Source of the DNA: Acanthacorydalis orientalis
Lineage: Eukaryota; Arthropoda; Insecta; Megaloptera; Corydalidae
Reading direction: 5' to 3'
Length of the DNA: 64,000 nucleotides
Assembly: GCA_034766995.1 (NCBI GenBank)
Contig: CM068325.1
Span: 9,226,768-9,290,767, forward strand
Position numbers and translations under genes: made by a program. Under the pieces are notes generated by a model, which was not told the DNA's origin, did not search any database, and was given only the letters and a program-made list of their open reading frames with translations. This document shows, piece after piece, positions 1,600-42,708 of this stretch (its first letter is position 1; each line of letters begins with the position of its first letter).

Positions 1600-3091
1600 C
1601 CCTTATGTTAGTAATCGGGTACCCCCCGCGGTGTATTTGTATGAATAGCTTAAAGAAAATTCAATATTTCATTTTAAGCTCTCAAATCGTCGTTTTTTAA
1701 CTTAAAAGAAAGCTAGTTGTGAGTGCATTTAATTTATTTATTTTTTACTTTTTTTTAAAAAATAAGCTTAAACTTCAGCCATCGCCCCATTAGCAACCGG
1801 GTACCCGGGTACCCACAGTGGAAAGCATAGGAAATAAATCGAAGATAATTTTTATAAATGCATGCAACTAAATTTTATTAAAAAAATAAAGAAATATTAC
1901 ACTTTTTTTTTATAATTAATGACATTGAACACATTGTACAAGATTAACTGAGTGCTCGTCACATACTGGTTGGTGACAATTGGCACAGTTCTTACGAGTC
2001 TTTCGCCGTCTTCTTATTGGCAAGGCATTGCAGACATGGCAAGATCCTGTTACTTTTTTTCTTCCGGTTTTATCTTTTACAATCACTGGACCAGGATTTA
2101 CCACGACTGTTTCTGTCAGTGCATGGCCTAAAATGCTTTCAACGGCAATTTTCGTTGAGAAGTGGCGCATTACTTGTGGATTCGCCGTGCGGTGTTCAAT
2201 CATCGGCAATGCCAGTTCTTCACTTAGCTTACGCATAAATTGACGACGTTCTGTCGTTTTTTTGGCGATCATTTTATTATTTTCATAATAAATTATATAT
2301 GATGCAAGTGAAGAAATGTCTAGCATGTTGAAGAACATTGCCATTGGCCATCTCGAAGATCGTCGTTGACTTGTGTACCTCCGGACCATTTGGTCCATTG
2401 TGTCAAAACCAGCTTTATATTTATTATAAAAATTTATAATTTCTGGTTTTTGTTTAGCGTCATCGCCGACAGATGCATCTGAATGCATTGTAGATAACAG
2501 AATGACAGCTTTATTTTTTTTTAGGAACGTAGGAACACATGGTAACTTTTTCGTGAAATCCAAAAACTGTCGAATACTGCTCCCGTGTCTTATTTGTTCC
2601 AATAACACTAGGGATGTAAGGTTTATTTTTTTTTACCGTGCCAACAATGATAATATTCCACGATAACAAATGTTCAGCAACGGGTAGAGTAGTAAAGAAG
2701 TTATCCGTGCAGATGTTTCTACCACTACCTCGGTACGGAGCCGCCAATTCTTTCTATATTAAAAAATACTCGACTCTAGTGCGCGATAGAAGAAGAAGAA
2801 ATAACCTTGAGTTTCTTTCTCTCTCCAATGGCATCTGCTCGGCTCCGAACAATAAAAACCGGCCGACTACCTGCAGTGCCCCAAATAGGTTTCAGATGTC
2901 ATTCACGATTCTATATTGTTATTATTATTTTTTTTCTTTAAATTATCACTAATTATTAATATTTCAAGAAAAAAATGTTTAGAAAAACATTTTTTTAATA
3001 AAATAAACAAAATTTTTAATACTCAGGTCTGTGGGTACCCGGGTACTCGGTTGCTAAAAGACGTCGGTAAAGTTGGTTACTAACATAAGGC
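1600..3091 (-). mobile_element. piggyBac-family transposon, internally deleted
   Basis: The element is bounded by TTAA at 1596-1599 and 3092-3095, the piggyBac target duplication. Ends begin CCCTTATGTTAGTAA, with one mismatch at the right end. Subterminal GGGTACCCGGGTACCC-type palindromes lie near 1799-1815 and 3031-3050. The interior carries only the C-terminal part of a transposase on the minus strand, plus the 5' untranslated end. The N-terminal half and first catalytic residues are missing. The copy at 50517-51818 has the same ends and keeps the other half of the gene. Confidence 0.88.
1916..2747 (-). pseudogene. piggyBac transposase, C-terminal part, frameshifted
   Basis: Two overlapping minus frames (2747 to 2511, then 2608 to 1916) together read the distal part of a DDE_Tnp_1_7 transposase. 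Visible marks are DNFFTTLPVAEHLL, the late catalytic block KYKAGFDTMDQMVRRY with RRSSRWP after it, and a C-terminal cysteine/histidine domain (CHVCNALP, CANCHQPVCDEHS, CVQCH), as in piggyBac proteins that bind their own ends. The change of frame near a run of A/T at about 2511-2525 breaks the gene, and the upstream half is deleted, so it cannot encode a working enzyme. Confidence 0.88.
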
Positions 3092-3095
3092 TTAA

Positions 3096-3870
3096 TGAAT
3101 TTTTACTATACAGATGTCCTTAATGTCGGTTATTGTTTTTTTTTTTTTTTTTACGAATATAAACTACGATTACAAATAAAAATAAACTTTATAATCGATC
3201 TATAATTAAAAATCGGTCCCACCGCCGCTATGCGTGCGTTTTATTCGGTCACCGATCGGTCGATATCGGGCACGTGGTCTGTGCTCCGATCGGTCGATAT
3301 CAGTTACGACTTACAGTTCGCGCGGATTTTTTTCTGTGTATAATTTGTTAATTTCTGTTAATCGTTGAGGGGCGGGGTACGAAGTTTCTTCGAGAGTTTG
3401 CGAGCGCAGAGCCGCCTAGTTTTTACTAAATGCTCGATACGTGTGATCGTAAACATTTACTTTTAAAAAGTCATCTCGACGGAGTGATCGTCGTTCTGGC
3501 ACTCGCAAATATAGGGTGATAAATTTAGGCTTCCACATGAAAGTATTAAAAAAAAAACGCAAAAGTAAAAAGAATCGTGTTATTTTTTAATTTTTGGGTT
3601 TATTTTAAGTTTCATGTGGAAACCTAAATTGACTCGTTCTTAATTTGCCCCTTTTTCAACGTTTCGAGTTACCTTTTCCAACGTTTCAACCGTTAATTAT
3701 AAAATTTCCGTTCGAATATTCCTTTTAAGGTGTTCCAACCTTTGTAGATGTAAACCTTCTCCTTTAAATCGCTCCGAAGAAAAATGTCCGCGGCCATTAA
3801 ATCTAACTATGTCGTTACATCGCACCGATTTAAAAATATCATATTTGGAAAACGATGTCCTAAGATATCG
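3096..3870. other. non-coding stretch with an inverted repeat
   Basis: No gene recognised. A 14-base word, GATCGGTCGATATC, occurs twice near 3250-3300. An imperfect inverted repeat of about 21 bases per arm lies at 3522-3542 and 3610-3630, enclosing an A/T-rich loop of about 67 bases. It could be a small fold-back element or a hairpin RNA. Confidence 0.5.
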
Positions 3871-3989
3871 ATCGTGTCTTTTTCTGTATGAAAAATGTAT
3901 CGTCTTGCTGAAACCGAACCTCTTCGTGCTCTTTCAGCTGTGCCGAAATATTTTTCTACGATTGTTATGAATCATTCACTATTAAGAGT

Positions 3990-4300
3990 TCATGTCACAG
4001 CACGACAAAAACGACAGGCCTTGGCCATCTTCAAAAGAATATGGTTTGAAGTAATCTTTTGTAATGTTACTGTACACCGAACAAGAAACTTTATTGTGTC
4101 CAAGGGCCGTCGGTGGCCTTGATATGGATTATTAATGTCGCAGAATGGCATATTTTTTTTGTTGACAAGGCCGTTTACGTGCAAAGAGGCTTCGTCGTTT
4201 ATCCATAAACTTTTCGAATATGAGTCATTACGTTCAACCATGTCGATTAAAGTTCTACTTTAACTGAAGTGCACTCGATGGTCGTTAGGCATTGTTTTTT
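3990..4300 (-). pseudogene. degenerate Tc1/IS630-like transposase fragment
   Basis: The minus strand from about 4241 reads WINDEASLHVNGLVNKKN followed by NNPYQGHRRPLDTIKF. This is the pattern around the first catalytic aspartate of DDE_3-type transposases: DEA/DES, H-x-NG-x-VN, then an NP motif and a W/F-rich strand. Sequence on both sides is too eroded to follow, and no terminal repeats were found. An old remnant; the family assignment rests on this one motif block. Confidence 0.5.
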
Positions 4301-5177
4301 ACGCCAGTTGAATCTTATATGAACACAACTTCAAAATTCTTTGTACTGAACTCTTTGTTATTCCGACGTGAGTTGAATGGCCGCGAGTGAAAGATTTAAT
4401 TTTTAACCACGCTTTCGGCTGCACTGTTTATGTTTTCAGCTGACCTTGTATTTCGTATTGAAATTTCGCAACCGACCTGTGAATTTTCAGGGCAGAGACG
4501 TATTTCTTAGATTAAAAATTCTATAAAATCTTCTTTGAGTTGAAACTCTACTCCGATTCTTTGCTAAATAAATCGTACCTATTTATATGCATTTCTTAAG
4601 CTGATAGTACATCGTTTAGAATTCCTTACGTTTCAATCTACAAAAAAAATTTCAACGTGTATGGAATAATATAAAAGTTATGAATAGTTCAGTTTATTAA
4701 TAAGACTTTTAGCGCTGCCTGTAAAAGAATTTAAACGACGACGAAATTCGGCACAATTTCTATAGGACGTTGCATTTGAATTCACGAAACAACACGATAT
4801 TGAAAATTAAAGTTTAATCGAAGAATGGCCTTTTAGTAGTAGCAGTGTAAAAACAAGCTCATCGATAAAATGTGTTCCTTTAAAATGACTAGCCGTATAT
4901 TTAAAAAAAAACAAAGACTAGTAAAAGTATTACTGGCGGTGAGGTGAAAAAAACATCTCGGCAGACGATAGTGTGTGTGTACGACTGATAAAAAAATGTC
5001 GCGGCTCAGATGATTCGCAAAGTGTTATATAATGATTATCACCTCACAGCGTATGCGTTCTATCCTGAATTTGGTTTCAATATAAATATTAAATATGCCC
5101 ATGTACGTTTCTGACACCAGACTACACTCGAATGAGAAACATTTTTCACTTGAATCATCGCTGTTCTTTTTTTTTGC
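4301..5177. other. presumed upstream region of the NACHT-ankyrin gene
   Basis: No gene recognised. It is AT-rich and ends in a long pyrimidine tract before the splice-acceptor-like site at 5178-5179. The promoter of the downstream gene, and any 5' non-coding exon, should lie here or further left; no convincing TATA or initiator could be singled out. Confidence 0.4.
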
Positions 5178-5179
5178 AG
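5161..5179 (+). promoter_or_regulatory. probable 3' splice site just before the NACHT-ankyrin start codon
   Basis: An almost uninterrupted pyrimidine run ends in GCAG (AG at 5178-5179), a textbook metazoan acceptor, 10 bases before the ATG at 5190. If used, the 5' leader contains an intron while the whole coding region is a single exon. An out-of-frame ATG at 5182 lies between acceptor and start and opens a frame ending at 5349 that overlaps the main frame. Confidence 0.6.
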
Positions 5180-5189
5180 ACATGCGACG

Positions 5190-8100
5190 ATGCCGTCCTC
5201 AACAAACAATCAAGTTTCCATCGTACCAGCCGACGAACATAATGTCGATCCTTTCGAAAATAGTTATACTTCCTCAGGGGACAAGATATGCTCGCACGGC
5301 CGTGACTATCAGTATAAAGTCATCGTTTACCTCATGTGTAAGCAACTGAATGCGAATTCTGAATATTTTCGTCTGGCGTGTGAAATGGATGACGCTGGAA
5401 AATTCGACGACATTGTCTTACATTATGTGGAAAATAACGAATGGAAATACAAATTATACCAACTTAAACACGTATCCGGTAAGAATAAGAAAATAAATTC
5501 CAACAAGATATTTGAAAAAGAATCGAAAAACTCGAGATATTCTCTAAATATGTACTTTGACTCGTTTGAGAAGGAAATTAAAGCAAAAAATTTCGAAAAC
5601 AAACACGAAGGTAAAATAGTCGAGGTCATTCTAATGACAAATGTCGGATTGGATTTCAGTAATGACCTCCATAAAAATATATTCGAGAAGTGTAACGAAG
5701 AAATCGGGGTAGTTTACAAGTTCAAGAAAGGCCGCGAAGTACTCGTACACTTTTTAAAATACGAGCACTCTCTTCGCGGAAAAGTTTTGAACGAGAACGG
5801 CGACTTATCGGTCGATGCTGAAGATTTTTTTAGTAAATTACGGATCCGTGTTGATTTTTGCGACGAAGAGGCCGAACGAAAAACCAAAGACGAAATAAAA
5901 AAGTTTCTTCGGGTCGACGACGAAGAGTACGTCGATAACGTATACAAGGATCTTTACAATAACATCGCTAGGTGGGTGTGCGATCCCCGAGGATATTTTG
6001 TCGGTAGACGAAAATGCATGGAATGGTTTACTGAAGCTAAAGAAAAAATAAAGAACCCGTCGGACGTCTTCAGTGAATTCCATTTGAATCGAATTAGAAC
6101 GCACGATGTTCGATTCATCGAAGAAAGTTTACGGAAATTCAGGAATATTTTCGAGCAGAATGCACGCGTTTGTCACGTGAGGACGCGTTGCAGCGTCGAC
6201 TTTTCACTTGTGAAAGTGGCGCAGTGCTTGGAAGAAGGAACATTCCGCTTGATCGGCGACGATGAGTTTATCACTTACGATAAAAACAAACTGATAAACG
6301 ATCTGCGATTAAATGAAATCCGTGTGTTGGTGATCGCTTGTTTTTCGTGTAAAACACTCGACATTCCGTCTTGGGAACGTATAAAGTTCATAATCGTCGC
6401 GAAATCTATATCTCTAACTGTAAATAATGTGCAGTGCATCGACGATGAGTTTAAATTTATTGAACTCGTACAATCGAAGCAAGAAGAACTCTTAGAGAAA
6501 GAAATTCGGTTTCAGACACGTTGTAGGAAAGTGCAACAAGTGTTTCGCCCGGACATCCGTCACATCATCGGTAATGATTTTCTGTTTAAACTCGTCACAT
6601 CGGCCGATCCGGTCGAGATCGACTCGTCAGCGGACAGGCTCAGATCGACGGACGCTTTTTATATCGACAGACGCGTGTCCTACGGAAACGAAATCGACAT
6701 GGCTCGGTTCGGACTGAACGACAGGGACGACGTCTACGTCTTCAGCGGGATGACGGAGACGCAGTTAAGAGAACTCTGCGAGGAAAAATCCGTGCGGAGA
6801 CGAGACGATTTCTCGAACAGGGGCGCGCGGCTCGACGATTCGAAAAGGGACGAGCGCGAGAGCAACGGCGCCGGCGAAACCGACGGCGAAGCCGACGACG
6901 AGGCCGACGTGATATTCTTATTACCGGAACGGAATCCGGAAGAAAAATTCAAACGGTTCTGCGAATCGTACGCGGGGAAGAATGTCGTGTGGATCGAGCA
7001 TTCCGAGACGAGATTCTATCTGAGGAAGGCGTCCCGATCGATCAGGCGCGTCAGGGATTTCGTACGTGAAGGAATCACGAACCGCTTCGACGACCGTCGG
7101 TTGACCGATCTGAACGACGATATAATCATCGTATGCGCGGACCCCGGAATGGGGAAGAGCACGTTGCTGTCGCGACTCGCGTCGAATCTCATCGAGGACG
7201 AAGATCGTCACGCGTGGATATTGCACGTGAATCTGACGGATCACGTGAAAGACTTCGGAGATCGAAAGACGTTCGACGTCGATTCCGCCACGGAATTCAT
7301 CGCCGACAGCCGACGCTTCGGCGCGTTCGAAAGGAGTCTCTTCGCGGAGTGGCCGGAAGTCACGATACTGTTCGACGCGTTCGACGAGATCGCCCCGGAT
7401 CACAGGCGAGCCGTCGTCGAACTCGTCACGAGTCTGAACCGAAACGAGAGATTCAGAATGTTCCTCACGTCGCGACCGAACGAAAAAGAATATCTCGAGG
7501 ACGTATTCAACCGTCTCTGCTATCGGCTCGATCCGTTCGATAAAGAAAACATGGCGTCGTTTCTCACGAACCGATGGAATCCGAGCGGCGACGTCGACCG
7601 AGATCGTTCGACGAGATTCATCGACGCGCTGATAGATTCGGTGAAATCGTCGACCGTCGACAGATCCGAACGACTCATGAACACTCCGCTCGAATGCAGG
7701 TTGATCGGCGACGTGTTCGAGAAGGAACATAAGGTTTTCGTCGAGGGACGCGACGATCCGCCGTTACCTAAACGCGTCGACGTGTTGGAACTCTTCGAAG
7801 AATTCGTGCTACTGAAGTGGAAAATATACGTCGAAGAGAAAAAAAAGCAATACATTCATCCCGCTTCGCCGCTAGAAAGGAAACATCTCGAGGATAGTTT
7901 TTTTCTGTTTAAAGAAAATCACAGACTGGCGAGTGTATATCTGCTGTTCGGAGATAAAATCGATTTGGACAATTTAAAAAGAAACGATTCCGAATGCATT
8001 TTAGATAAAAAAGAAAAACGCCAGCTGAAACGTTTCTTAAAAGAAATCGAAAGTGGAGATGAGAAGACGGGCATAATTCAGTCCGTACGCGACGGTACTC

Positions 8101-11100
8101 CCAAATACACGCATAGAATGTTCGCGGAGTATTTCGCTGCGGAGTTTTTTCACGAACTCGTCGAAGACGATCGACAAAAATCGAGAGAGTTTCTCGCCGA
8201 AGCCATGTTTCATTCTGAAAGAAAAACATTTAAGCTTTTTTTCGACCGTCTTTCCATTAAAGATCAAACATCATCAAAAATATTCAAAATCTTATTGAAC
8301 TGCGATGAAGATCGGTTCGATGATTTCATCGATAAGGAAGAAAGCAGTACGTTTGTCAGCTCGACCGACAAATTCGGCCGAAATGCACTTCACTTATGTG
8401 CCACGTATGAGTTCGACAACATCTTTCAACAGTTGCTCCGACGCGAGTTCGACATGAATGCAAGAGACGACTTCTTCGGATACACGCCAGTGCAGTACGC
8501 ATGCGTCGCACAGATGTGGAAGAATCTAGACTTGCTGTTGACGAAAAGCGACGAAAACATAACGGATTTCATTTCTGACAAAATTCAGTGCTTACTTCAC
8601 GCATCGAAGAACGGATATAAGGAAATAGTCAGAAACCTAATGGAGCACACTGAAGCAACTCACAGAGACGAATTTATCAACACGATAGACGGAGACAAAA
8701 GGACGCCGTTGTATTACGCAGCAATCTCGGGACACGTGTCTCTGACAAAGTACATAATGGAGGAAACTAATGTGAATTTAAGTCATAAATACGACTATGA
8801 CGGGAACACCATTCTGCATTCACTAGCACGAATATCCGAGGAACGAGACGGATCGATGGAGATAGTGCGACTATTAGCAAACACGGATTTGGTCAATACT
8901 AGAAATATTGAAGGTCGGACTCCACTTCATTATGCAGCCAATTGCGCATCGAAATCTGTCTATGAGTGCCTGTTAAATGCAAACCAAGCAGATGTTTTCG
9001 TTACCGACAATTCCAAGCTAACACTTTTACACATGCTGGTAGCAACACACGACGAACAGAAAATCGGAATTGTAAAAGAACTTATTTGTAGAGGCATTTC
9101 GATCGATGCTCGTGACGAATACGGAAGAACGCCGCTTCATATCGGCTGCGAATTCGGTTCTCGCGCTCTCTGCGAGTACTTGATCACAGAAATGCGAGCG
9201 GATATCAAGGCGGTCAATAACAGTAACTGGACTACCTTACATTACCTGGCGAAGAACAAGAATGAAAACATGGTCGAAGTTGCACGTTTGGTGGTCTCCG
9301 AAGGCGTCTCGATCGAAGCTCGTCATAACTACGGAAGTACGCCCCTTCTTGTCGCTTGCTCATTCGGCTCTCGCGCATTCTGTGAGTATTTGATCACAGA
9401 AGTGAAGGCGGATATTAAGGCAGTCAGTAACAGATACTGGACTACTTTACACTGTCTGGCAGAGAATAAGAATGAAAACATGGTCGAAATTGCACGTTTG
9501 CTGGTGTCTGAAGGCATTCCGATCGAAGCTCGTAATGAAGATGGAGGTACGCCTCTTCTTGTCGCTTGCTCGTTCGGCTCTCGCGCACTCTGTGAGTACT
9601 TGATCACAGAAATGAAAGCGGATATTATGGAAGTCAATAACAGAAACTGGACTACCTTACATTGCCTGGCGGAGAATAAGAATGATTACATGGTCGAAGT
9701 TGCACGTTTGCTGGTTTCTGAAGGTATTCCGATCGAAGCTCGTAATGAAGACGGAAATACACCTCTTCATGTCGCTTGCTCGTTCGGCTCTCGCGCACAC
9801 TGTGAGTACTTGATTATGGAAGCGAAAGCAGATATTAAGGCAGTCAATAACAAAAACTGGACTACCTTACACTCTCTGGCAAAGAATAAGAATGAAAACA
9901 TGATCGAAGTTGCACGTTTGCTGGTGTCTGAAGGCATTTCGATCGAAGCACGTGAGGAACATGGAAGAACGACTCTCCATCTCGCTTGCTCATTCGGCTC
10001 TCGCGCATTTTGTGAGTATTTGATCACAGAAGTGAAGGTGGATATTAAGGCAGTCAGTAACAGATACTGGACTACTTTACACTGTTTGGCAGAGAATAAG
10101 AATGAAAACATGGTCGAAATTGCACGTTTGCTGGTTTCTGAAGGCATTCCGATCGAAGCTCGTAACGAAGACGGAGATACGCCTCTTCTTGTCGCTTGTT
10201 CGTTCGGCTCTCACGCACACTGTGAGTACTTGATCACGGAAGCGAAAGCAGATACTAAGGCAGTCAATAACAAAAACTGGACTACCTTACACTCTCTGGC
10301 AAAGAATAAGAATGAAAACATGATCGAAGTTGCACGTTTGCTGGTGTCTGAAGGCATTTCGACCGAAGCACGTGAGGAACATGGAAGAACGACTCTCCAT
10401 CTCGCTTGCTCATTCGGCTCTCGCGCATTCTGTGAGTATTTGATCACAGAAGTGAAGGCGGATATTAAGGCAGTCAGTAACAGATACTGGACTACTTTAC
10501 ACTGTCTGGCAGAGAATAAGAATGAAAACATGGTCGAAATTGCACGTTTGCTGGTGTCTGAAGGCATTCCGATCGAAGCTCGTAATGAAGACGGAGGTAC
10601 GCCTCTTCTTGTCGCTTGCTCGTTCGGCTCTCGCGCACTCTGTGAGTACTTGATCACAGAAATGAAAGCGGATATTATGGCAGTCAATAACAGAAACTGG
10701 ACTACCTTACATTGTCTGGCAGAGAATAAGAATGAAAATATGATCGCAGTTGCACGTTTGCTTGTTTCTGGAGGCGTTTCGATCGAAGCTCGTAACGAAG
10801 ACGGAGATACGCCTCTTCTTGTCGCTTGCTCGTTCGGCTCTCGCGCTCTCTGCGAGTACTTGATCACAGAAATGCGAGCGGATATTAAGGCAGTCAATAA
10901 CAGTAACTGGACTATCTTACATTACCTGGCGAAGAACAAGAATGAAAACATGGTCGAAGTTGCACGTTTGGTGGTCTCCGAAGGCGTTTCGATCGAAGCT
11001 CGTCATAACTACGGAAGTACGCCCCTTCTTGTCGCTTGCTCGTTCGGCTCTCGCGCACTCTGTGAGTACTTGATCACAGAAATGCAAGCGGATATTATGG

Positions 11101-11348
11101 CAGTCAATAACAGAAACTGGACTACCTTACATTGCCTGGCGGAGAATAAGAATGAAAACATGGTCGAAGTTGCACGTTTGCTGGTGTCTGAAGGCATTTC
11201 GATCGATGCTCGTAATGAAGACGGAAAGACTCCTCTCGATATTGCATGTATATTCGGTTCTAGCGCATTCTGCGAGTTTTTAATTACAGAAATGAAAGCG
11301 AATATTAAAGCAGTCGAAAAAGGAAATGAGCTTCCTTACGTTATCTAG
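5190..11348 (+). CDS. nuclease-like / NACHT NTPase / ankyrin-repeat protein, 2052 aa, single exon
   Basis: Seen: residues about 36-95 carry the pattern of DUF4297/Cap4-type PD-(D/E)xK nucleases: GRDYQYK, then E65, D73-D74 (FDDIV) and YQLKH with the Q-x-K signature (Q91, K93). A DFFSKLRIRVD block follows near 212-222, typical after such domains. The NACHT core has a Walker A (ADPGMGKST, 650-658), a Walker B (ILFDAFDEI, 726-734), a sensor MFLTSRPNE (757-765) and a distal HRMFAEYFAAEFF (about 975-987). From about 1058 to 2045 come about 29 ankyrin repeats, the last third being 70-residue pairs encoded by a 210-bp DNA repeat. Known: STAND NTPases oligomerise when their repeats sense a ligand and activate the N-terminal effector. 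Inferred: an intracellular sensor that would cut DNA on activation, resembling bacterial Avs systems. The ATG at 5190 was chosen because it follows the acceptor and precedes the conserved domain. No signal peptide or membrane segment was seen. The frame is intact, so the gene is probably functional. Confidence 0.85.
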   Translation: MPSSTNNQVSIVPADEHNVDPFENSYTSSGDKICSHGRDYQYKVIVYLMCKQLNANSEYFRLACEMDDAGKFDDIVLHYVENNEWKYKLYQLKHVSGKNKKINSNKIFEKESKNSRYSLNMYFDSFEKEIKAKNFENKHEGKIVEVILMTNVGLDFSNDLHKNIFEKCNEEIGVVYKFKKGREVLVHFLKYEHSLRGKVLNENGDLSVDAEDFFSKLRIRVDFCDEEAERKTKDEIKKFLRVDDEEYVDNVYKDLYNNIARWVCDPRGYFVGRRKCMEWFTEAKEKIKNPSDVFSEFHLNRIRTHDVRFIEESLRKFRNIFEQNARVCHVRTRCSVDFSLVKVAQCLEEGTFRLIGDDEFITYDKNKLINDLRLNEIRVLVIACFSCKTLDIPSWERIKFIIVAKSISLTVNNVQCIDDEFKFIELVQSKQEELLEKEIRFQTRCRKVQQVFRPDIRHIIGNDFLFKLVTSADPVEIDSSADRLRSTDAFYIDRRVSYGNEIDMARFGLNDRDDVYVFSGMTETQLRELCEEKSVRRRDDFSNRGARLDDSKRDERESNGAGETDGEADDEADVIFLLPERNPEEKFKRFCESYAGKNVVWIEHSETRFYLRKASRSIRRVRDFVREGITNRFDDRRLTDLNDDIIIVCADPGMGKSTLLSRLASNLIEDEDRHAWILHVNLTDHVKDFGDRKTFDVDSATEFIADSRRFGAFERSLFAEWPEVTILFDAFDEIAPDHRRAVVELVTSLNRNERFRMFLTSRPNEKEYLEDVFNRLCYRLDPFDKENMASFLTNRWNPSGDVDRDRSTRFIDALIDSVKSSTVDRSERLMNTPLECRLIGDVFEKEHKVFVEGRDDPPLPKRVDVLELFEEFVLLKWKIYVEEKKKQYIHPASPLERKHLEDSFFLFKENHRLASVYLLFGDKIDLDNLKRNDSECILDKKEKRQLKRFLKEIESGDEKTGIIQSVRDGTPKYTHRMFAEYFAAEFFHELVEDDRQKSREFLAEAMFHSERKTFKLFFDRLSIKDQTSSKIFKILLNCDEDRFDDFIDKEESSTFVSSTDKFGRNALHLCATYEFDNIFQQLLRREFDMNARDDFFGYTPVQYACVAQMWKNLDLLLTKSDENITDFISDKIQCLLHASKNGYKEIVRNLMEHTEATHRDEFINTIDGDKRTPLYYAAISGHVSLTKYIMEETNVNLSHKYDYDGNTILHSLARISEERDGSMEIVRLLANTDLVNTRNIEGRTPLHYAANCASKSVYECLLNANQADVFVTDNSKLTLLHMLVATHDEQKIGIVKELICRGISIDARDEYGRTPLHIGCEFGSRALCEYLITEMRADIKAVNNSNWTTLHYLAKNKNENMVEVARLVVSEGVSIEARHNYGSTPLLVACSFGSRAFCEYLITEVKADIKAVSNRYWTTLHCLAENKNENMVEIARLLVSEGIPIEARNEDGGTPLLVACSFGSRALCEYLITEMKADIMEVNNRNWTTLHCLAENKNDYMVEVARLLVSEGIPIEARNEDGNTPLHVACSFGSRAHCEYLIMEAKADIKAVNNKNWTTLHSLAKNKNENMIEVARLLVSEGISIEAREEHGRTTLHLACSFGSRAFCEYLITEVKVDIKAVSNRYWTTLHCLAENKNENMVEIARLLVSEGIPIEARNEDGDTPLLVACSFGSHAHCEYLITEAKADTKAVNNKNWTTLHSLAKNKNENMIEVARLLVSEGISTEAREEHGRTTLHLACSFGSRAFCEYLITEVKADIKAVSNRYWTTLHCLAENKNENMVEIARLLVSEGIPIEARNEDGGTPLLVACSFGSRALCEYLITEMKADIMAVNNRNWTTLHCLAENKNENMIAVARLLVSGGVSIEARNEDGDTPLLVACSFGSRALCEYLITEMRADIKAVNNSNWTILHYLAKNKNENMVEVARLVVSEGVSIEARHNYGSTPLLVACSFGSRALCEYLITEMQADIMAVNNRNWTTLHCLAENKNENMVEVARLLVSEGISIDARNEDGKTPLDIACIFGSSAFCEFLITEMKANIKAVEKGNELPYVI
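9111..11330 (+). repeat. 210-bp coding tandem array (paired ankyrin repeats)
   Basis: Units start at 9111 and every 210 bases after it (9321, 9531 ... 11001), giving ten full copies and a partial one from 11211. Each encodes two ankyrin repeats of about 34 and 36 residues (TPLLVACSFGSRALCEYLI... and NWTTLHCLAENKNENMVEVARLLVSEG). Units are nearly identical in DNA, silent sites included. The pairs at 9741+9951 and 10161+10371 are closest to each other, showing a 420-bp higher-order duplication. The unit at 10791 and the first half of 11001 match 9111/9321. This is the pattern of recent unequal crossing-over or gene conversion. Confidence 0.95.
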
Positions 11349-11514
11349 TACGATAAGGATGAAAGTATGATCGAAATCACACGGTCTCGTCGATCGTGTT
11401 AAAAAGAAAAGGAATCGCTGCGTACGACTGTAAAGTGTATTTTGTAGAACTGTAGGATGGGAGAAACTTTTTATATCGTGTAAAACTGAGTTTTATTAGA
11501 AGTTTATAAATACG

Positions 11515-11540
11515 AATAAAAGATGACATGAGTAAATAAA
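11515..11540 (+). terminator. polyadenylation signals of the NACHT-ankyrin gene
   Basis: Two AATAAA hexamers, at 11515 and 11535, lie 165-190 bases after the stop codon at 11346-11348. Their placement supports a eukaryotic transcript with a short 3' untranslated region. Confidence 0.65.
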
Positions 11541-12854
11541 ATACTGTATTAGTTTTAAACAATGTAAACTGCGGATAGAAATAATCTTCGTATATTCCCT
11601 ATGCTCTTTTGGAAATTTATGATTATCAACTCATTATATTTCATCCGTAATTACTATTGTCATTAGTTTTCAAGTACATAGTAAAATGTAAAATCACTGA
11701 ATTAATAAATTTGGAGCTGATGTTTTACTATTGATTATTATATCTGTTTAATAAATAACTTGCTATTAAATAATACTTATTATGTTTAAAGACTATTGAA
11801 TATTAGTTACAAAAAAAAAAAAAAAAAAAAAAAACTAATCTGTCCTAATTATTTTTGATTTTTTTATAATGAAATCAAAAAGAAAAAAAAAGCAGGAATG
11901 CACAAGAATTCTATGATTTCAAAGTGTTGGTCTTTTTCTGAACACTAATTTTGATGTTCCTTGCATGTCCTTTATGCATTTTTGTTCTATTATTTTTTTA
12001 TCCGCATTGAAGTTTAAAAGATGTACACAAATATATTTCATTATAATTAAACTGACGTATCTGAAAGTTATTTTAAGTTAATTAAATTTGATCAGTGGCA
12101 AATTTATAGCTGTGTTTGGTGTCCACTATTATCCATATTAAATTGAAGATTTCTCCTCTTAATGTTGAATTAACACATTCTTATAACAATTTTACATATA
12201 TGTATAGGTTAAAAGAATGTTTCTTTGGAAAATGCGAAATAAACAAGTTTAACCATGATTTCAGTAATACGTCAGAAATTAGAAATGTTTCTGCATAAAA
12301 ATCCTCTCGGAACAGTTATAAAGTTAATAATGTTTGATGAGATTTGCATTCTGTGATGATGACTTCTAGATAAATATCTCGATGGGCAAAATAATGTCGA
12401 AACTGTGCAAAACACTGTACCTGGTCGATTACACAACAGTATTATTAAAAGCGATGTAGAAATAATCGAGGAGAGAATGCGACAGATATTCGATAGTGTC
12501 GATCGAATCCCGCAAATATCTCTTCGATAATACTTTGACCGAAGTGGCGTTTCAAGAATTTTGCATTACCACGCCTTAAGTCGGGCCTCATCTAAAATTG
12601 AAGTGGTTTGATATTTGTAGGTAATATATATTTTGTTTCTGTCTGATATTGTATATGTCTGACAATTAACCATTACTATATAAAACTAATTAATAATAAA
12701 ATTACAAATTTTTAATTATATCCTTTTTTTAAAAAAAGGGACAAATAAAATATGAAATATATTTGCTAAATATAAAAATATGTACTGATCAAGATATGAA
12801 AATATATGATACATTCATTACAAATTGAATATAATTTCACTGCTAATACTTTAC
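11541..12854. other. AT-rich intergenic DNA, no gene seen
   Basis: Only short frames without domains. It contains a run of 24 A at 11811-11834 and several A-rich stretches. The LTR of the following gypsy element probably begins near the right end, but its outer edge could not be fixed. Confidence 0.5.
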
Positions 12855-12929
12855 ATATAGATAAGGACTTTTACTAACCTGATGGAAGTGTTATGATAAC
12901 AGAACAGTTGAGCATCAACATTAAAAATA

Positions 12930-14731
12930 CAGTGGTACCTCGACTTGCGAACTTAATTCGTTGCAGTCCAAGGTTCGTATCTCGAAACGCAGTTTTCCAT
13001 TATATCTTAGGGCGAATCAATTAATCCGTTCTCAGACTTACAAATTTTGAAAAGAATGCGTTTGTATCCAAAATATAATTATTTTTATTTAAGAGATTTT
13101 TGGTTTTACACGGTTTAATAAAAAAACATTTTCGTTAAGTGCTGCCTACGATGATTCCTTTTTCTATTCGGTGAAGAAGGTTCGAGAAAGCTATACATCG
13201 TTGATCGAGTCTGTCGCCTTGTCAATGCCCTCCTAAAGTGATTAATGACATTCTCATTAAAATTTTCGGTGGCTCTACAGACGACGTCTTGGTTCGGATG
13301 TCACTTGCTAACCATCTCTCTTAATTCTCTCCAGTGTTGTAAGATTTTTTTACATCATTTCTTTTAATGACTTCTTTTTTTGTTGCTATCTTCTTCGGCC
13401 TCTGAAGACATTTACTGTTCTTCGTCATCCTTTTCTTTTTCCTGCTCTCTTCTTAACTCTTGTAGGTATTCAGTAGTCAGATCAACCTTGTGCTGTCCTA
13501 CTAACTCGTCGATGTCTGCTTCTTTAACTTTTAAGTGAATAGCATTAGCCGAGGAAACAACCGTATCTATAGTAATGTCAGTTTCGCTTTCAAGTCTTTC
13601 TGAGTGAGTTTCTCGAACGCATACTCTTTTGCAGGCTGATTTCACTTGCTTATGCCTGTAGTCTTCTGTTTTCATCAATTCCTGAAATTCATTTAAGTAC
13701 TTTTTGGCAGCTTCTTTGTCAGCACTAGCACTTTCTCCATGCCTTACTACACTGTGGATACCGGTTCTGTTCTTAAATTTTTCAAACGATCCTTTACTAG
13801 CTTTAAATTCCTCATTGATATTTTCGGTGCTGCTAGTGGATGGGAAATTCAGTGTAAGATCTCCTTAAATAGCTTGAGATTTCAAACAAATCATGTTTTG
13901 AGGTACACTATATTCTTTTAGTTGCATGTCATTAATCCAGACAAGTAATAAATATTCCATTTCTTCCATAACTTTACTCGCTTGGTCACATCCAGATTCT
14001 TGTAAGAATCTGCTCTCTTGACAGTTGTAGTTATGGTGGATTTGGACAAGTTATATTGTGCGCACAAATCAATTTGTCTAATCCCTTTCTCATATTTTTT
14101 CTCGATTTCTTTCTTCTATTCAATTGTGATTTTCTTTCTTCTTCCTTCTCAGTTCCATATTTAATTTCTTCGGTTCCATATTTAAAAAGGTTGATTAAGA
14201 AATTGACGCTTATATTACAGGTTATGTCATGAAAGTAATATGAATCTATAATAAAACACGTCATTCGAGTTTGTCTTTTTTGGACGTTATTTCATTTATC
14301 GTTATTTAGTTTTTTAAAAAATACGTAAGTAATTTTATTTGTTACAACGAATAAGATACTGTCTCTTATAATAGAATTTCTAACGTATGTTTTTAAAAAC
14401 TTTAAATCTACAATGAAACATTTCTATTGACATCTATCGATTTTTCATGTTGCACACATTTTTTTAAAATAGTTTGTATCAGTTGCAACAGAAGAAACAG
14501 TTACAGTATTTCGGTGAACCTTCTTTGGGATACACTGCCCCATAATGTCAGAAACAAGAAATATATTTTATGAAAGTGATAATGAAAGTATCACTGCCAA
14601 ATTATAAACACATGTTATTGTACTCGGAAATCTCATGCTTTATATATCGAAATTAAGTTCGTATTTAGAAGCCAAAATAGAGTACGGAAAAAGTTCGTAT
14701 GTAGAGCGGTTCGTAAGTCGAGGTACCACTG
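12930..14731 (-). mobile_element. pogo/Tigger DNA transposon, internally deleted
   Basis: Terminal inverted repeats CAGTGGTACCTCGACTT(G/A)CG sit at both ends, flanked by TA at 12928-12929 and 14732-14733, as expected for pogo elements. Length is 1802 bp. The minus strand holds a decayed transposase in pieces. The insertion lies inside the LTR of gypsy element 1, so it is younger than that element. Confidence 0.88.
13412..14264 (-). pseudogene. Tigger-like transposase pseudogene lacking the DDE core
   Basis: Reading from 14264 downward, the first piece shows a CENP-B/pogo-type helix-turn-helix (basic start, EKKYEKG, IRQIDLCAQYNLSKS in one frame). Then comes the Tc5-type DNA-binding part (FEKFKNRTGIHSVVRHGE near 13790-13740) and KEAAKKYLNEFQELMKTE. 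The text jumps from there to the acidic C-terminal tail (KEADIDELVGQHKVDLTTEYLQ... at 13678-13412). The catalytic DDE_1 region is absent, and several frameshifts and stops separate the pieces. Confidence 0.8.
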
Positions 14732-15068: not shown

Positions 15069-16370
15069 TTAAGTTACATAGTCTTTTAGATAAGAAGGTT
15101 GATAAACATTTCGCCCGCTGCGAGTGACATATACACCGTTGTCATTATCGTTACTAGGTTCGTTATTTAGTTGCTCAGTCTCTTCAGTATTCGTCTGACA
15201 AGCTGTGTAACTTGAATTATTATCAGTTCTGTTTTCTGTATTCTCAGAGACTGAACTTTCATTGTAACGTCTAGTTTCATTTCTTATCTCTATTGGTTCT
15301 TTTGTGTCTTTTGTAAGATGTATTCTATTGCGTGTAAATGATGAACCATTCTCTGTCTTTACTCTATAAGCTCTATTATTTTCATCCCTGTTTAGTACTA
15401 TAGCCCTATCCCAGGTACCTGTTTTATTCTTTATTCTAACATTTTCTCCCTTTTCAAATCTATTTAAATCTTTGGCTCGCTTGTCATGATAATACTTTTG
15501 CGCTTTTTGTCTTAACAATAACTCATTTCTTATTGGCTTATTATAATCTTGCTTTAAACTAGGAATATCAGACAAGACACCTTTTACATTTTTTCCTTGC
15601 ATTACAAAGTTTGGCGACGGTATTTTTTCTGAGATAGGTGTATTATTAAATTCTAGAATAGCTAAGTATGCGTCTTTTTTGTCTAAGTAAGTTTTTTTAA
15701 TTACTTTTTTAATCGTTTGAATATGACGTTCTACCATTCCATTACTTTGCGGATAGGTTGGACTAGACATAACATGCTTAAATTTCCATTCTTTAGTGAA
15801 CTTCTTAAATTCTATACTCGAGAATTGGGGACCATTGTCTGATCTCACTTCTTTAGGAATTCCCCAATGTACAAAACATGACTTTAACGACTTAATAACC
15901 GTGATACTTGATTCATCTATTAATGGCAGTACATCTACATATTTAGAATAATAGTCTACAACTAGCAAATTAGCTTTTCTTTGGATATAAAATATATCTA
16001 CGCCTACTACTTCCCACGACTCATTCGGTACTACTGAGAGCTTCAAACTTTCCTTTGGATTTGAGTTTTGGAATGTTAAGCACGTTTTACAATTAGTTAC
16101 TTTACTTTCTATGTCTTTATTCATACGTGGCCAAAATACAATTTCTCTAGCTCTTGCTTTAGTCTTTTCTATACCTAAGTGATTATAATGTAATTTATTT
16201 AGTACTTCTTCTCTTAGACAATTTGGAACTATTATACAGTTATTTTTAAATAGCAAGCCATCATATTCATATATATCTGCATTATAAGTATGATAAGCTT
16301 TGACCAACTCAGGTACATCTTTAATTTCTTTAGGCCATCCTTCTATTATTAATTGTTTGACTGTTTGCAA
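15069..16370 (-). pseudogene. gypsy integrase (433-codon open frame) of element 1
   Basis: The frame shows the zinc-binding H-H-C-C module (HYNHLGIEKTKARAR ... NCKTC), then the rve catalytic core with VDIFYIQ, RSDNGPQFS and GMVERHIQTIKK, which supply the D, D and E residues. A C-terminal region follows with RAKDLNRFEKGENVRIK and WDRAIVLNRDENNRAYRV, the usual chromodomain-like fold of this clade, ending in SGRNVYQPSYLKDYVT. It would insert reverse-transcribed DNA, but the 5' part of pol is deleted and a frameshift separates it from RNase H at 16394, so it is a relic. The open length suggests a fairly young copy. Confidence 0.88.
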
Positions 16371-16393
16371 CTCTTTATCTCTGTCTGTTTCTT

Positions 16394-16862
16394 CTATATA
16401 TATATCTGTTTTTTATCAGAACTGATCTCACCAGATAAAGTTAATTCTAATATGTACATTTTCGGACCAATATCCTCTTTTGACTCGCTTACGTGTGCTC
16501 TCGATAATATATCTGCTAATACCAAATCTTTACCACGCTTGTATGTTATTTTAAGATCATATGGTTGAAGCCGCATTCTCATTTTCTGTAGCCTAACAGG
16601 TATATCAGATATTTTTCTTTTAAAAATTGTAATAAGTGGTTTGTGATCTGATTCAACTTCAAAAGGTTTCCCTATAACATATTGTCTAAAACGCTCACAC
16701 CCAAATACAATAGCATATAACTCTTTTTCAATTTGCGCATAAGACTTTTGACAATCAGTAAAAGCTTGTGATGCGTATGCTACAGGCAAATTATTTTGTA
16801 GTAGCACTGCACCTACACCTGTGCTGCTAGCATCTACGCTTATTTTGCAAGGTTTGTTTACA
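16394..16862 (-). pseudogene. gypsy RNase H fragment of element 1
   Basis: The minus strand from about 16862 reads VDASSTGVGAVLLQNN, PVAYASQAFTDCQKSYAQIEKE, SDHKPLITIFKRK and VLADILSRA, the standard RNase H segment at the end of Ty3/gypsy reverse transcriptases. Upstream it stops abruptly at 16863, where LTR sequence begins, so the polymerase domain with its YxDD box is missing. It overlaps integrase only after a frameshift. Confidence 0.88.
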
Positions 16863-17202
16863 GTATTCTAATACGTCGGAAACCTTCAAGAGAGTCTCTT
16901 TTTTAATGAATGGAAGGGTGCCAGTGTGAACTGTTTTAATACCTACTAACCATACGAATTTTAGTATAAATTTCCTCTCCAAAATGATTAGTAGAAGTAT
17001 ATTGCATACTGTATTGGAATGAAAAGGGATCCGGCACAATTAAAAATAATACCGAACGATAGCGTTCAACAATGTATTTCACAATATATGCAAGGGTTCC
17101 GTGCAAAGGAACAACGAATACAAGTGACTGTGAGGTGTACTGAAAACATGTCTACTTACGACGACTGTTGATGAACGAGAGACCAACGCTAAGGACGCGC
17201 AG

Positions 17203-17634
17203 ATGGTCCTTAGCATAGATAAAGTATCTCTAGATGACAACGTGCGGGTTAAAAATCTATGGCATGAAAACGATGGACTGGTGGGGTGCGGGGTATTAAT
17301 TTTGTGGACTTAATTAGATGGCACTGTTCGCGCGATATTTTTGCGGGTGGTTTGAACACTTCAAATTTTAATATTAGCGCTAGTGTACGTTCCAATTCAG
17401 AAATGTTTAGTTTAAACACATTTTATAAAATTTTTAAAGAAATGAATTCAATATAAAATACGAAATTCATTACATCAAAATTATTATAAAATTGTGTTAA
17501 AATTAAACATTTCTGAATGAATGTAAATAAATTTTAAATAATTTCAATTTTTTTGCAATCATACTATTGTTTGATGCTGTTTAAAATTCACAAAAAAGAC
17601 AATTATCTATGTAACTTATTAATTTTTAAAAATA
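17203..17634. repeat. dispersed non-coding repeat, copy 1
   Basis: Shares blocks such as TCTAGATGACAA, AATCTATGGCATGAAAACGAT and a conserved AT-rich tail with 25675-26110 and 34258-34720. At 25675 the repeat runs straight into a P-like transposase fragment, and here it would do so after removing the gypsy at 17635-22518. It is therefore probably the 3' non-coding end of a P-like element. Confidence 0.65.
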
Positions 17635-17825
17635 AGTTTCATGATGGATTGTTTCTAATAGTCACTCCTCTATTTGAATCTCAATTTCTGTCCTTTTCTT
17701 CCTTCAGAGAGTGTTACGACCCGTGATGAAACTCTCAGTCTCCCTGTTTACAACTAGTGTTGCCATGGTCACCCTTCTCTCTCTCTCTGTCTCTCTCTAG
17801 TACGTATGATACCGTAACAAAATTA

Positions 17826-18873
17826 TTAATTCATAATAAAGTCTTTAAATTTTCCTGGAAGTTTTGAACGCTTCCTTGGTAGAGTCGATGGATACGTCGA
17901 TTCTGATTTTGAAACAGCAATTGAAGTTCCCTGTTGAGAATCTGGTTGCGTCGTGTTCGGAGATTCGTTCATTGATTTCGAGACTTGATTCTTGTTGTGA
18001 ATCTCAGGAGTTGCCTTTGGACTAGATAATAGACTTTGTCGTTGAAACAAAGACAATGAATGAATCTGTTGCGGATGACTGAATTCCCAGATGCTCTAGG
18101 CGTTGAGAAAAGTTTGTCGTAGGTCGAATATGAACTAAGTTGCGTCTGTAATTTGTTCCCTTGACATTAATTACATAGTCTCTGTCACTGAACTTGTTCA
18201 CTATTTTCCCTTTTTCCCACGTTTTGTCGACGTCCGGGTGAATTTGCACCGTCACTGGTTGACCGATCACGAGCTTTGGTAGATTTCTCGTCTTCCTGTC
18301 GTAGTAGGATTTCGACCTGCGCCTATTCAACTCGAGTTTGTCCAGTACTTCGGGAATTATTTGAGGTAGTAGTTTCTCCATTGTCACTGGAAGTCCGGTG
18401 CGCGTTCGTCGAGAAAAAATCCGTTGGACGGGGCTCGAACCGATCTTGTTTGTTGTGTTGCGCCATTGTAAAATCATGAGCCATAGGTCTTCTCCGGATT
18501 CGTTTGCTTTCTTGACTAGTTTCTTGGCAATTTTGACTGCAGATTCTGCTCTACCATTCCCACGCTGGTGTTTTGGTGCAGAAATCACAATCGTGAATGC
18601 CCAGTTACGGGCGAGTTTCTCCATTAGCTGATTTTTGAAATTGGTTCCATTATCGCTGCATAGTCTCATGGGAATGCCGTGTCTACTGAAATTTCGTTTG
18701 CACGTGGCGATAAGTGTCTCAGCCGACATGTCCTGTAATATATCAAGTTCAAAATAATCAGAATAATGATCGCCAGTGATAAGAAACTTTCGTTTTTCTC
18801 CTTTTAGCTTAGAGAAAAATACGTCCATCGATACGTATTGGAATCGGTATTCTGGAATCTCGTGCGACTGCAT
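17826..18873 (-). pseudogene. gypsy element 2 integrase
   Basis: The frame 18873-18022 reads the catalytic core and tail: YVSMDVFFSKLKGEKRKFLITGD holds the first D, CSDNGTNFKNQ the second, and RGNGRAESAVKIAKKLVKK the E. A C-terminal region with KTRNLPKLVIGQPVTVQ and DRDYVINVKGTNYRRN follows. A second frame (18056-17826) continues the tail (SKSESTYPSTLPRKRSKLPGKFKDF). The zinc-binding N-terminal part (around 18960-18880, including CETCW) lies in another frame. Broken by frameshifts. Confidence 0.85.
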
Positions 18874-18977
18874 GGGAGGCTGCTGTTGCGATTTTGCAAA
18901 TTTCCAGCAAGTTTCGCACGATTGAATTTTAAGTCCAATGTCGGAGGTAATTCCAGGCCAAAAAATTGTCTCTCTTG

Positions 18978-20910
18978 CTAGCTGTAGCGTTGCGGTCCAT
19001 ACCAGAGTGAGCTACATGGATTCGTGCCAGCATTTTTTTTCTCATATTGAACGGAATTACAATGCGATCGCTTTTGAAGATGAGCCCGTCCTGGTTTGAG
19101 AGATCTTGTTTGTACTTGAAATAAACGCGGTAATCTTCTTATATATATATATATATATATATTCTGTATATATTTTGGCCATCCATTAATTATATAACTT
19201 GCCAATTTTTTCATCGTAGTATCCGCTTGGGTTTCTAGGATAATTGTACTTGTTGTTTCAGGATTAACTTGTAGAGGTTTTATCGTGATTTTTTCTATTA
19301 GGCGACTGACGAGGATTTCTCTTTGGAGTTTGAAAATGTCAACATTTTTCATTAAATTCTCTGACGCAGAGTCCGACAGGTCAATGGCTCTTGACAGAGC
19401 ATCCGCTACTACATTCTCTTTTCTTTCGACAAAAATCACGTGCAAGTGGTATCTTTGAAGAACCATGAGCATCAGCTGTAGCCGTTTTGGGGCCTTCAGT
19501 AGCGGCTTCTGGAAAATATTGATTAGCGGCTTACGATCTGTTTTTATAGTCGTTTGTTTACTTCCAGCTACGAGCTGATCGTAACGTACACATACAAATA
19601 CAATTGACAATAACCCCTTCTCAATTTGAGCATAATTGCGTTCCGTTTTCGTTAGTACTCTTGATGCACTGCCAATCATACAGCCCTGCTGAAAGAGAAC
19701 AACGCCAAGACCAGTGGAACTCGCGTCACATTTCATCGTTAACGGGAATTGGATCGAAGGATCGAAATACGGTTGTATTTCGATGTTCCCAACGAGTTCT
19801 TTGATGCGCTTGAAACATTCCTCTTCCTTTTCTGTCTCAATCCAGTCATTGTCGTCCCTCGTGAGTCTTCGCAGAACTTCGGTTTCTGTTGATAAATTCT
19901 TAATAAATCTAGGGAGGTGAGTCACCATCCCGAGGAATCGTAGTACTTCTTTCTTGTTATTTGGTCTTGACATGTTTCTAATGCCACTCGTTTTGGTTTC
20001 ATCCGCCATGAGACCATCGCTGGTCAATACGTGCCCAAAAAACTTGACCGATGTCGGCACAAATTGATTTTTTCTCTATTTAAATTACAGTTTTTTTTCG
20101 AGACGAATGAGAAGATTTTCGAGATTTATATGGTGATCTCGAACTGCTTCTTCGAGGGTGTCTCAGCATCCGTAGACCAAGATGTCGTCTATTAGAATTT
20201 CAATACCTTTTAAGCCGCTCACGACTTCTTGCATTTTTTGACTGAATATTTCTGGGCAGGCGATACGCCGAAGGGAAGACGAAGCCATCTATATCTTACG
20301 AAAGGTGTCCAAAACGTTGTCAGTTTACTACTATCTTCAGTCAGTTTTAGTTGCCAGAAACCTTTCTTAGCGTCCATGGTTGAAAAAACCTTTGCCTTGC
20401 CGATTTCTGGTAATATTTCGTCCAGCGTAGTGAATTGAAAACGTGGTCTTTTCAACGCTGCATTGAGTGGAACCGGATCGATACAAATTCGTGGCTGTTT
20501 ATTATTTTTTTTTTACTAAAAGAAGATTACTTATCCAGTCGGTGCCCATCTTTTCTTGTAAGATTATTCCTTCTTTTTCAAGCCTAGACAGTTCTTTTTT
20601 TAAATCATCTCGGATGCTTATTGGAATTCTTCTTGCAGGTTGCCTCACCGGTTTCACTGACGGATCAATTTCCAGTGTTATGTCGCCGGAGATGTGTCCA
20701 TAGCCTTTGAATACACCCGCATTCTATAATCTGCTGAGCTCCTTTTCTTCCTTCAGAGAGTGTTATGTTGTCATCATTATTTTCGATCTTAAAGCAGTAT
20801 TTTACCAGCCCCAAGGTGAGACACGCCTTTTTAGAGAGGAGTGCGTCATGGTTAACATTGACGACTTGAAACACTAGACAAAATTTCTTATTTTTGTGTA
20901 AACAGAGCAC
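18978..20910 (-). pseudogene. gypsy element 2 reverse transcriptase and RNase H
   Basis: Pieces from 20910 downward: a polymerase region (PRFQFTTLDEILPEIGKAKVFSTMDAKKGFWQLKL split by length, FRYRWLRLPFGVSPA) and a catalytic box reading LIDDILVYG near 20165-20200, outside the main frames. The 360-codon frame from 20060 carries TSVKFFGHVLTSDGL, the RNase H block CDASSTGLGVVLFQQG, YAQIEKGLLSIVF, and DRKPLINIF where a H is usual, then VVADALSRA. A TA microsatellite at 19141-19161 has expanded inside the coding sequence and adds an IYIYIYI stretch. Not functional. Confidence 0.88.
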
Positions 20911-41911: not shown

Positions 41912-42708
41912 ACGTGATTTTCAACAACCAGACTGTAATTTTATATAAACGAGAATTCCATCCACCAGACTCTATTTGCGGTAAAATTTTAATCCCATTA
42001 TATAGAACTAACTTACTTTTACTGAAATAACACGAAATATGTAAACATTATCGGTAAATTTTGGGAAATTATCACTAAAATCGCGTTTTTTTGCGTAAAA
42101 TAGCTATATTTTTCATATAAACATGATTTTCAACTACCAGACTCGAGATTTGCGGTAAACTTTTGTTCCTAATATATAGAACTAACTTACTTTTACTGAA
42201 ATAACACGAAATATGTATACATTATCGGTAAATTTTGTGAAATTATCACTGATTTCTCGTTTTTTTTTTCACTTAAAATTGGGATATTTTTCATATAAAC
42301 GTGATTTTCAACTACCAGACTCGAGATATACGAAAAAATTTTGTTTCCTATTATATAGAACTATCTAACTTTTACTGAAATAACACGAAATATGTATACA
42401 TTATCGGTAAATTTTATGAAATTATCACTGAAATCTCGTTTTTTTTTCGCTTAAAATAGCGATATTTTTCATATAAACGTGATTTTCAACTACCAAACTC
42501 GAGATATGCGGTAAAAATTTGTTTCCTATTATATAGAACTATCTTACTTTTACTGAAATAACACGAAATATGTGTACATTATCGGTAAATTTTGTGAATT
42601 ATCACTGAAATCGCGTTTTTTTGCTTAAAATTGGGATATTTTTAATGTAAACGTGAGTTTCAACTAACAGACTCGAGATATGCGGTCAAATTTTAATCCC
42701 ATTATATA

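Follow-up and report, generated by a model that had tools for sequence, protein, structure and literature searches.

Does an insect genome encode its own counterpart of a bacterial Avs-type defence sensor? This question is raised by a 2052-codon gene in a 64,000-nucleotide stretch of the megalopteran Acanthacorydalis orientalis (GCA_034766995.1, contig CM068325.1), hereafter called the window, which spans positions 9226768-9290767 of C13 in the 548 Mb (27 contigs) of genome sequence that we searched. The gene combines a nuclease-fold domain, an NLR-type NACHT core and an ankyrin array within one polypeptide. It is one of a multigene family with at least 75 nuclease-NACHT places and not a single acquired gene. 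With a probability of about 0.58, we assign it to a large multigene family whose products are intracellular STAND sensors, each with an integral DNase as effector, the immune and enzymatic roles being those that we infer.

Gene structure and domain architecture

The window is part of a eukaryotic chromosome, as seen from its splice signals and from transposon frames of the piggyBac, mariner, long terminal repeat (LTR) and reverse transcriptase types, which were found in a Pfam scan of its frames. In 200 first-order Markov simulations of equal base composition, the longest frame obtained by chance was 233 codons. A 3' splice acceptor lies 10 nucleotides 5' of the ATG, and on sequence grounds the coding part is most likely a single exon within a spliced gene. 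The preliminary description of this DNA had reported an intact single exon of 2052 codons; the 2052 codons are indeed intact, while, with an acceptor in front of the ATG, the term single exon applies to the coding sequence only.

For the N-terminal domain, structure prediction supports a Cap4/DUF4297-type PD-(D/E)xK fold. Its AlphaFold model matches residues 10-244 of Avs3 (PDB 8dgc) in Foldseek and VIA-align comparisons, and the PADLOC model LmuA matches residues 36-157 of a 297-residue N-terminal piece (E 5.1e-9). A DUF4297/Cap4-type domain ahead of a STAND NTPase had been proposed beforehand, and the check named for it, a structural match of residues 30-240 to PD-(D/E)xK folds, came out in its favour; the N-terminal pattern described at the time is likewise found in full, with E65, D73-D74 and Q91-L-K93 followed by H. 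An alignment of 17 family members, with identities down to 23%, contains just 12 invariant columns, among them E65, D74, Q91 and K93. Acidic and x-K residues of the catalytic type are, at the level of sequence, present and conserved among the aligned members, and the domain may cleave DNA. The Pfam family Cap4_nuclease (PF14130) was reached by one of the 17 members (E 7.9e-4). Pfam scans (residues 1-627 and 251-1130, E<=10) revealed no SAVED domain, and matches to the PADLOC SAVED models were confined to the first ~125 of ~483 positions. A Pfam match to DUF6970 (E 0.0018) was set aside as below its own cut-off.

The middle region gave no Pfam match over cut-off. It is followed by a NACHT domain that exceeds the PF05729 threshold (E 1.8e-6, 28.4 bits versus a cut-off of 26.7) and contains the Walker A, Walker B and sensor motifs, all three as described earlier. 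The NCBIfam model of EruA, a NACHT antiphage protein, gave E 1.4e-9 with its best stretch in the NACHT part, at 36.7 bits versus a cut-off of 1000. In the fold search, animal NLRs rank above Avs4 for the NACHT core (Avs4 at E 1.8e-3, rank 49), and the NLR matches mostly cover the model from residues ~434-478 to ~1023-1095.

In the C-terminal part, Pfam lists 15 Ank_2 stretches. A tandem array at 9092-11315, consisting of 10.6 copies of a 210 bp unit with two repeats each, covers most of the ankyrin region, and the count of about 29 repeats given previously agrees with an estimate by length. PADLOC matches to PDC-M72A and MzaA were located in the ankyrin region and set aside.

Table 1 Features of the nuclease-NACHT-ankyrin gene in the window
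Feature	Position	Strand	Evidence and conservation
3' splice acceptor of an intron 5' of the start codon (polypyrimidine tract + CAG)	5161..5179	+	sequence; also in paralogues inspected from the two nearest groups
Coding sequence, 2052 amino acids, most likely one exon, zero internal stops	5190..11348	+	open reading frame and translation
Cap4/LmuA/DUF4297-type PD-(D/E)xK nuclease-like domain (predicted), residues ~31-290	5280..6059	+	PADLOC LmuA, AlphaFold, Foldseek, VIA-align
E65, nuclease core	5382..5384	+	invariant, 17/17 aligned members
D73-D74	5406..5411	+	D74 invariant in 17 aligned members; D73 nearly (N in L040)
Q91-x-K93, xK half of PD-(D/E)xK	5460..5468	+	Q91 and K93 invariant, 17/17 aligned members
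Middle region, residues ~327-620, alpha/beta in model, 535-572 at low confidence	6168..7049	+	predicted structure
NACHT NTPase, residues 646-792	7125..7565	+	Pfam PF05729
Walker A ADPGMGKS, residues 650-657	7137..7160	+	G653, G655, K656 invariant, 15/15 members
Walker B ILFDAFDE, residues 726-733	7365..7388	+	D729, D732, E733 invariant, 15/15 members
Sensor motif TSRP, residues 760-763	7467..7478	+	R762 invariant, 15/15 members
Helical part with short strands behind NACHT, residues ~800-1025, NLR-core-like	7587..8264	+	structure matches to NLRs
Ankyrin repeats, residues ~1026-2040; 70-residue double units from residue 1303	8265..11309	+	Pfam Ank families, tandem array
Two AATAAA poly(A) signals, at 11515 and 11535	11515..11540	+	sequence

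A multigene family of nuclease-NACHT proteins

The nuclease domain (residues 1-297), used as a query against the genome, gave 124 rows, which correspond to 96 places, broken ones included; the 28 rows dropped were second pieces of one place, short fragments and seven duplicates of residues 1-53. The PF05729 search (E<=0.001) yielded 76 places, every one over the cut-off, and 75 of them are preceded on the same strand by a nuclease-domain match at a distance of 1.0-3.5 kb. With a single exception, the NACHT matches detectable in this genome are nuclease-NACHT combinations, and 67 of the 75 occur in open frames of at least 1100 amino acids (up to 4529). A NACHT match is missing at 21 of the 96 nuclease places. 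The PF05729 count omits the NACHT domain of a distant member at C3:33104700 (L039; family members are given as L numbers, the window copy being L001), which at 24.8 bits stays under the cut-off.

The sole NACHT-profile match without an upstream nuclease-domain match, at C6:7167810-7168316, is also the strongest (80 bits).

Seven further copies share 97-99% identity with the window protein across 2020-2052 residues, and one of these seven carries a stop. The tree of 24 rows shows several deep lineages; 14 of its 21 inner branches are well supported, and its six longest branches are flagged as unsure. The layout is retained by distant members: NACHT was found in L044, L047 and L050 besides the sub-threshold match of L039, and ankyrin repeats in L039 and L050, with those of L044 under the cut-off. 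Ankyrin repeats were not found in the stretch of L047 that was scanned, and L049, a piece of 597 amino acids, matched nothing.

More than half of the nuclease places (52/96) lie on C13; the others are spread over C2 (12), C12 (8), C11 (6), C1 (5), C9 (4), C20 (3), C7 (2), C3 (2), C23 (1) and C5 (1). Because the small contigs C20 and C23 may be other haplotypes, the true number of genes could differ by a few; C20 may correspond to C13:0.19-0.34 Mb. Along the 9.5 Mb of C13, two clusters stand out (0.08-3.13 and 6.91-9.44 Mb), in which neighbouring places are mostly separated by 50-150 kb; just two places (5.55 and 5.86 Mb) lie between them. In seven members (C13:2403980, 1659772, 8377717, 8047069, 7605851 and 278340; C20:75008), a second copy of the first 53 codons, 78-82% identical, is found ~0.6-1.1 kb upstream; it may serve as an alternative first exon or result from a duplication of part of the gene.

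Introns, duplication and origin

An acceptor just 5' of the ATG is shared by 13 of the 17 members inspected and comes in two types. A T-rich tract with GCAG 10 nucleotides before the ATG occurs in L001, L007, L027, L029, L034, L037 and L038, and another acceptor, ACAG, 21-22 nucleotides before the ATG, in L042, L043, L045, L046, L048 and L049. L041 has a candidate acceptor farther upstream, and for L039, L044 and L050 a clear acceptor was not seen within the short upstream stretch inspected. Duplication of whole segments is illustrated by the C2 copy (99% at the protein level), for which homology at 95-99% identity extends in pieces from window position 169 to 22526 or beyond. By sequence comparison, this copy belongs to a segmental duplication of at least 22 kb; retroposition was rejected for it on the same grounds. 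Window positions 1600-3091, with a fragment of a piggyBac-type transposase (1916-2608, minus strand), are absent at the matching C2 place, which reflects either an insertion that postdates the duplication or a deletion on C2.

The preliminary description had considered the gene possibly acquired by horizontal transfer, since it has no intron. Because a splice acceptor precedes the ATG, intronlessness provides no argument for such a transfer, and we rejected it as one; the at least 75 places, the several deep lineages and the rank of animal NLRs ahead of Avs4 also speak against the proposal. The nuclease domain may or may not have been transferred long ago: no relative of the family's nuclease part was found outside this genome, and the evidence thus points to no particular origin. 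None was found in a set of 5.8 billion proteins, where the searches scored 7981, 638 and 7996 candidates, 7981 and 7996 being those sharing most words; absence is weak evidence given these limits and because records close to the source may be missing from the collections. The last of these searches gave three proteins at E<=0.01, two of which (P0002 and P0003) match the NACHT part and one (P0004) the ankyrin part. In P0002, a metagenome protein of 1575 amino acids with membrane-like and peptidase-like parts (by eye), residues 696-1151 match positions 561-1018 of the family profile.

A prophage, plasmid or viral origin was rejected, with no match in phages, plasmids and viral contigs for the window protein and none in plasmids for other members. 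The viral structure library yielded nothing at E<=0.001 (best 8.0e-3), PHROGs gave weak rows only (best E 0.098), and the prokaryote genomes searched contained no confirmed relative. The literature searched, which comprised titles and abstract beginnings and covered the field in part with few subscription papers, gave no description of an animal protein that joins a Cap4-type nuclease to NACHT or to ankyrin repeats.

Proposed mechanism and alternative explanations

How could a sensor with a built-in DNase work? At rest, the NACHT core would hold ADP and keep the nuclease inactive. Binding of a foreign or aberrant protein ligand by the ankyrin array might then cause nucleotide exchange and, through it, ATP-driven oligomerisation, whereupon the clustered Cap4-type nuclease domains would cleave double-stranded DNA, either the invader's or that of the host cell. 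Cutting could result in clearance or cell death, as in Avs3, Lamassu and CBASS-Cap4. New variants would be supplied by whole-gene duplication, chiefly on C13, and by changes in ankyrin unit number. Turnover of the array is suggested because of the frame lengths, the one extra ankyrin unit of L008 and the comparison of L007 with the window copy, in which 34 of 56 differing positions fall in the array, against an array share of 37%. As the extra unit of L008 was left unaligned in the comparison, its difference count was excluded.

Constraint on the proteins was estimated per domain from the ratio of non-synonymous to synonymous substitution rates (dN/dS), as the 'all' values of L001/L007 and L007/L004 include 3' flanking DNA. 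For three group A/group B pairs, the values are 0.26-0.29 in the nuclease domain, 0.29-0.30 in the middle region and 0.20-0.27 in NACHT, and the nuclease domain of L045/L046 and L046/L048 gave 0.30-0.32. Together with the values of the close pairs given below, this pattern fits constraint plus local relaxation, diversification or recombination.

Several observations weigh against a sensor with a built-in DNase. The LmuA match is seen with the 297- and 330-residue pieces only, and not with the 627-residue piece, the 1130-residue piece or the whole protein. Pfam scans did not list Cap4_nuclease for the window protein, and sequence searches of solved structures returned no nuclease relative, the single-sequence search giving unrelated rows or none and the profile search none. 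Among the whole-model Foldseek matches (E<=0.001), 18 of 29 are other AAA+/STAND ATPases, with low template-modelling (TM) scores, and the whole-protein model has a predicted TM-score (pTM) of 0.58, at which domain placement is unreliable. In some close copies, dN/dS of the nuclease domain is high (0.88 for L027/L037, 0.74 for L042/L043, 0.72 for L042/L046) and reaches 1.20 in NACHT for L042/L043. The closest copies give no support to array turnover: differences from the window copy that fall in the array number 3/15 in L002, 3/15 in L003, 4/14 in L004 and 3/17 in L005, without enrichment over its 37% share. The dependence of the LmuA match on piece length and the missing excess of array changes in the closest copies slightly lowered our confidence in this reading and in the broader one that follows.

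Only tentatively, and with some doubt, do we extend it to the statement that virtually the whole detectable NACHT repertoire of this animal lineage consists of self-contained nuclease-NACHT-ankyrin receptors that cut DNA directly and thereby remove invaders or kill the cell, an animal counterpart of Avs with at least 75 genes and a specificity gained through duplication and ankyrin turnover.

Among the alternatives, a role in defence of the genome instead of defence against pathogens survives best, and we consider it rather unlikely. The proteins would detect what transposons or selfish chromosomes produce, and would respond by cutting the DNA of these elements or by killing the germ cell. Copies do sit amid transposon remains in the window, and they crowd both ends of C13 and the final few Mb of C2, but a location at repeat-rich ends is usual for pathogen-receptor families too. 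It is still less probable that the nuclease fold is a non-catalytic binding or oligomerisation module and that signalling proceeds via partners like in classical animal NLRs. Fold and motif are what the case for a nuclease is built on, and the elevated dN/dS of this domain in some close pairs would suit such a module; the invariance of E65, D74, Q91 and K93 across members as distant as 23% identity speaks against it, because loss of catalysis would normally free these residues. It is very improbable that a segmental macro-repeat or mobile element merely carries the family along as cargo and that its proteins lack a host role: the seven near-identical copies, one with a stop, and the at least 22 kb copied along with one of them would be expected of cargo, but the low dN/dS between groups A and B (0.20-0.30), the presence of deep lineages as single genes on C1, C3, C5 and C2 (the C5 member outside the tree) and the lack of clear transposon-type termini among 25 of the 90 inverted-repeat pairs at 3000-14000, where the longest pair around the gene is mainly A/T runs, argue against it. 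A mobile element with terminal repeats was rejected on this last observation.

Other features of the window

Apart from the gene, the window contains LTR-retrotransposon integrase and RNase H frames (15069-20060, minus strand), a separate reverse transcriptase frame (28571-29836, minus strand) and a mariner transposase frame of 303 amino acids with HTH_48 and Transposase_1 (38443-39354, minus strand). Pieces resembling a second mariner copy (by eye) are found in two frames at 42862-43589 (plus strand). Tandem arrays that resemble satellites, with unit lengths of 175-185 bp, occupy 36810-38241, 40529-41907, 41939-42709 and 43646-44534. The region at 44912-45409 (plus strand) and nearby is GC-rich, with a frame resembling (by eye) a host-gene exon that encodes a coiled coil; the frames 44440-45510 (minus strand) and 45584-46444 (plus strand) had no Pfam match.

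Comparison with known systems

Avs3 is the closest mechanistic parallel, together with Lamassu and CBASS. Like Avs proteins, the window protein contains an N-terminal effector and a STAND NTPase in one chain. In Avs the repeat sensor is built of tetratricopeptide-like repeats and recognises terminase or portal; here an ankyrin array takes its place. Avs proteins are prokaryotic and lie in defence loci, whereas this multigene family resides in an animal genome with transposons and splice sites, and for its NACHT core the fold search places animal NLRs before Avs4.

With animal NLRs such as NLRC4, NOD2 and NLRP3, the window protein shares NACHT and the helical parts that follow. It differs at both ends, with a nuclease-fold domain where NLRs have a death-fold domain and ankyrin repeats instead of C-terminal leucine-rich repeats. 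Animal NLRs are commonly regarded as acting through adaptor domains, and insects, to our knowledge, as having essentially no NLR repertoire. The dozens of large genes found here suggest an unrecognised family of intracellular invader sensors.

In fungal and other NACHT-ankyrin proteins, ankyrin repeats follow NACHT as in the window protein; we know of none with a Cap4-type nuclease in front. In LmuA of Lamassu, Cap4 of CBASS, the Hachiman nuclease and DUF4297 of HerA-DUF, the nuclease is driven separately, whereas in the window protein it shares one chain with a NACHT switch. A helicase or ATPase partner drives the Hachiman and HerA-DUF nucleases. CBASS Cap4 has a SAVED domain behind the nuclease, unlike the window protein in the scans described above. 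One report describes the Cap4 endonuclease domain as an effector in Lamassu and CBASS, driven by a separate SMC-like protein in the former and by second-messenger oligomerisation in the latter (PMC10586767), and CAP4-SAVED is listed for Hachiman and others in another (PMC10952713). Bacterial STAND and related proteins carry variable N-terminal effectors, restriction endonucleases included, and the sections available do not describe a nuclease-NACHT-ankyrin architecture (PMC8195603); a further text counts NACHT among the domains that trace back to bacteria and, as far as available, makes no mention of Cap4 (PMC10732462).

A large, mostly open and still-duplicating animal family with a bacterial-type nuclease domain ahead of an NLR-like core would tie the logic of bacterial abortive infection directly to animal innate immunity, and its near-identical natural variants allow sensing, activation and cleavage to be tested separately. 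Altogether, the family probably works like Avs proteins and NLRs and is, as defined by the sensor repeats, a member of neither.

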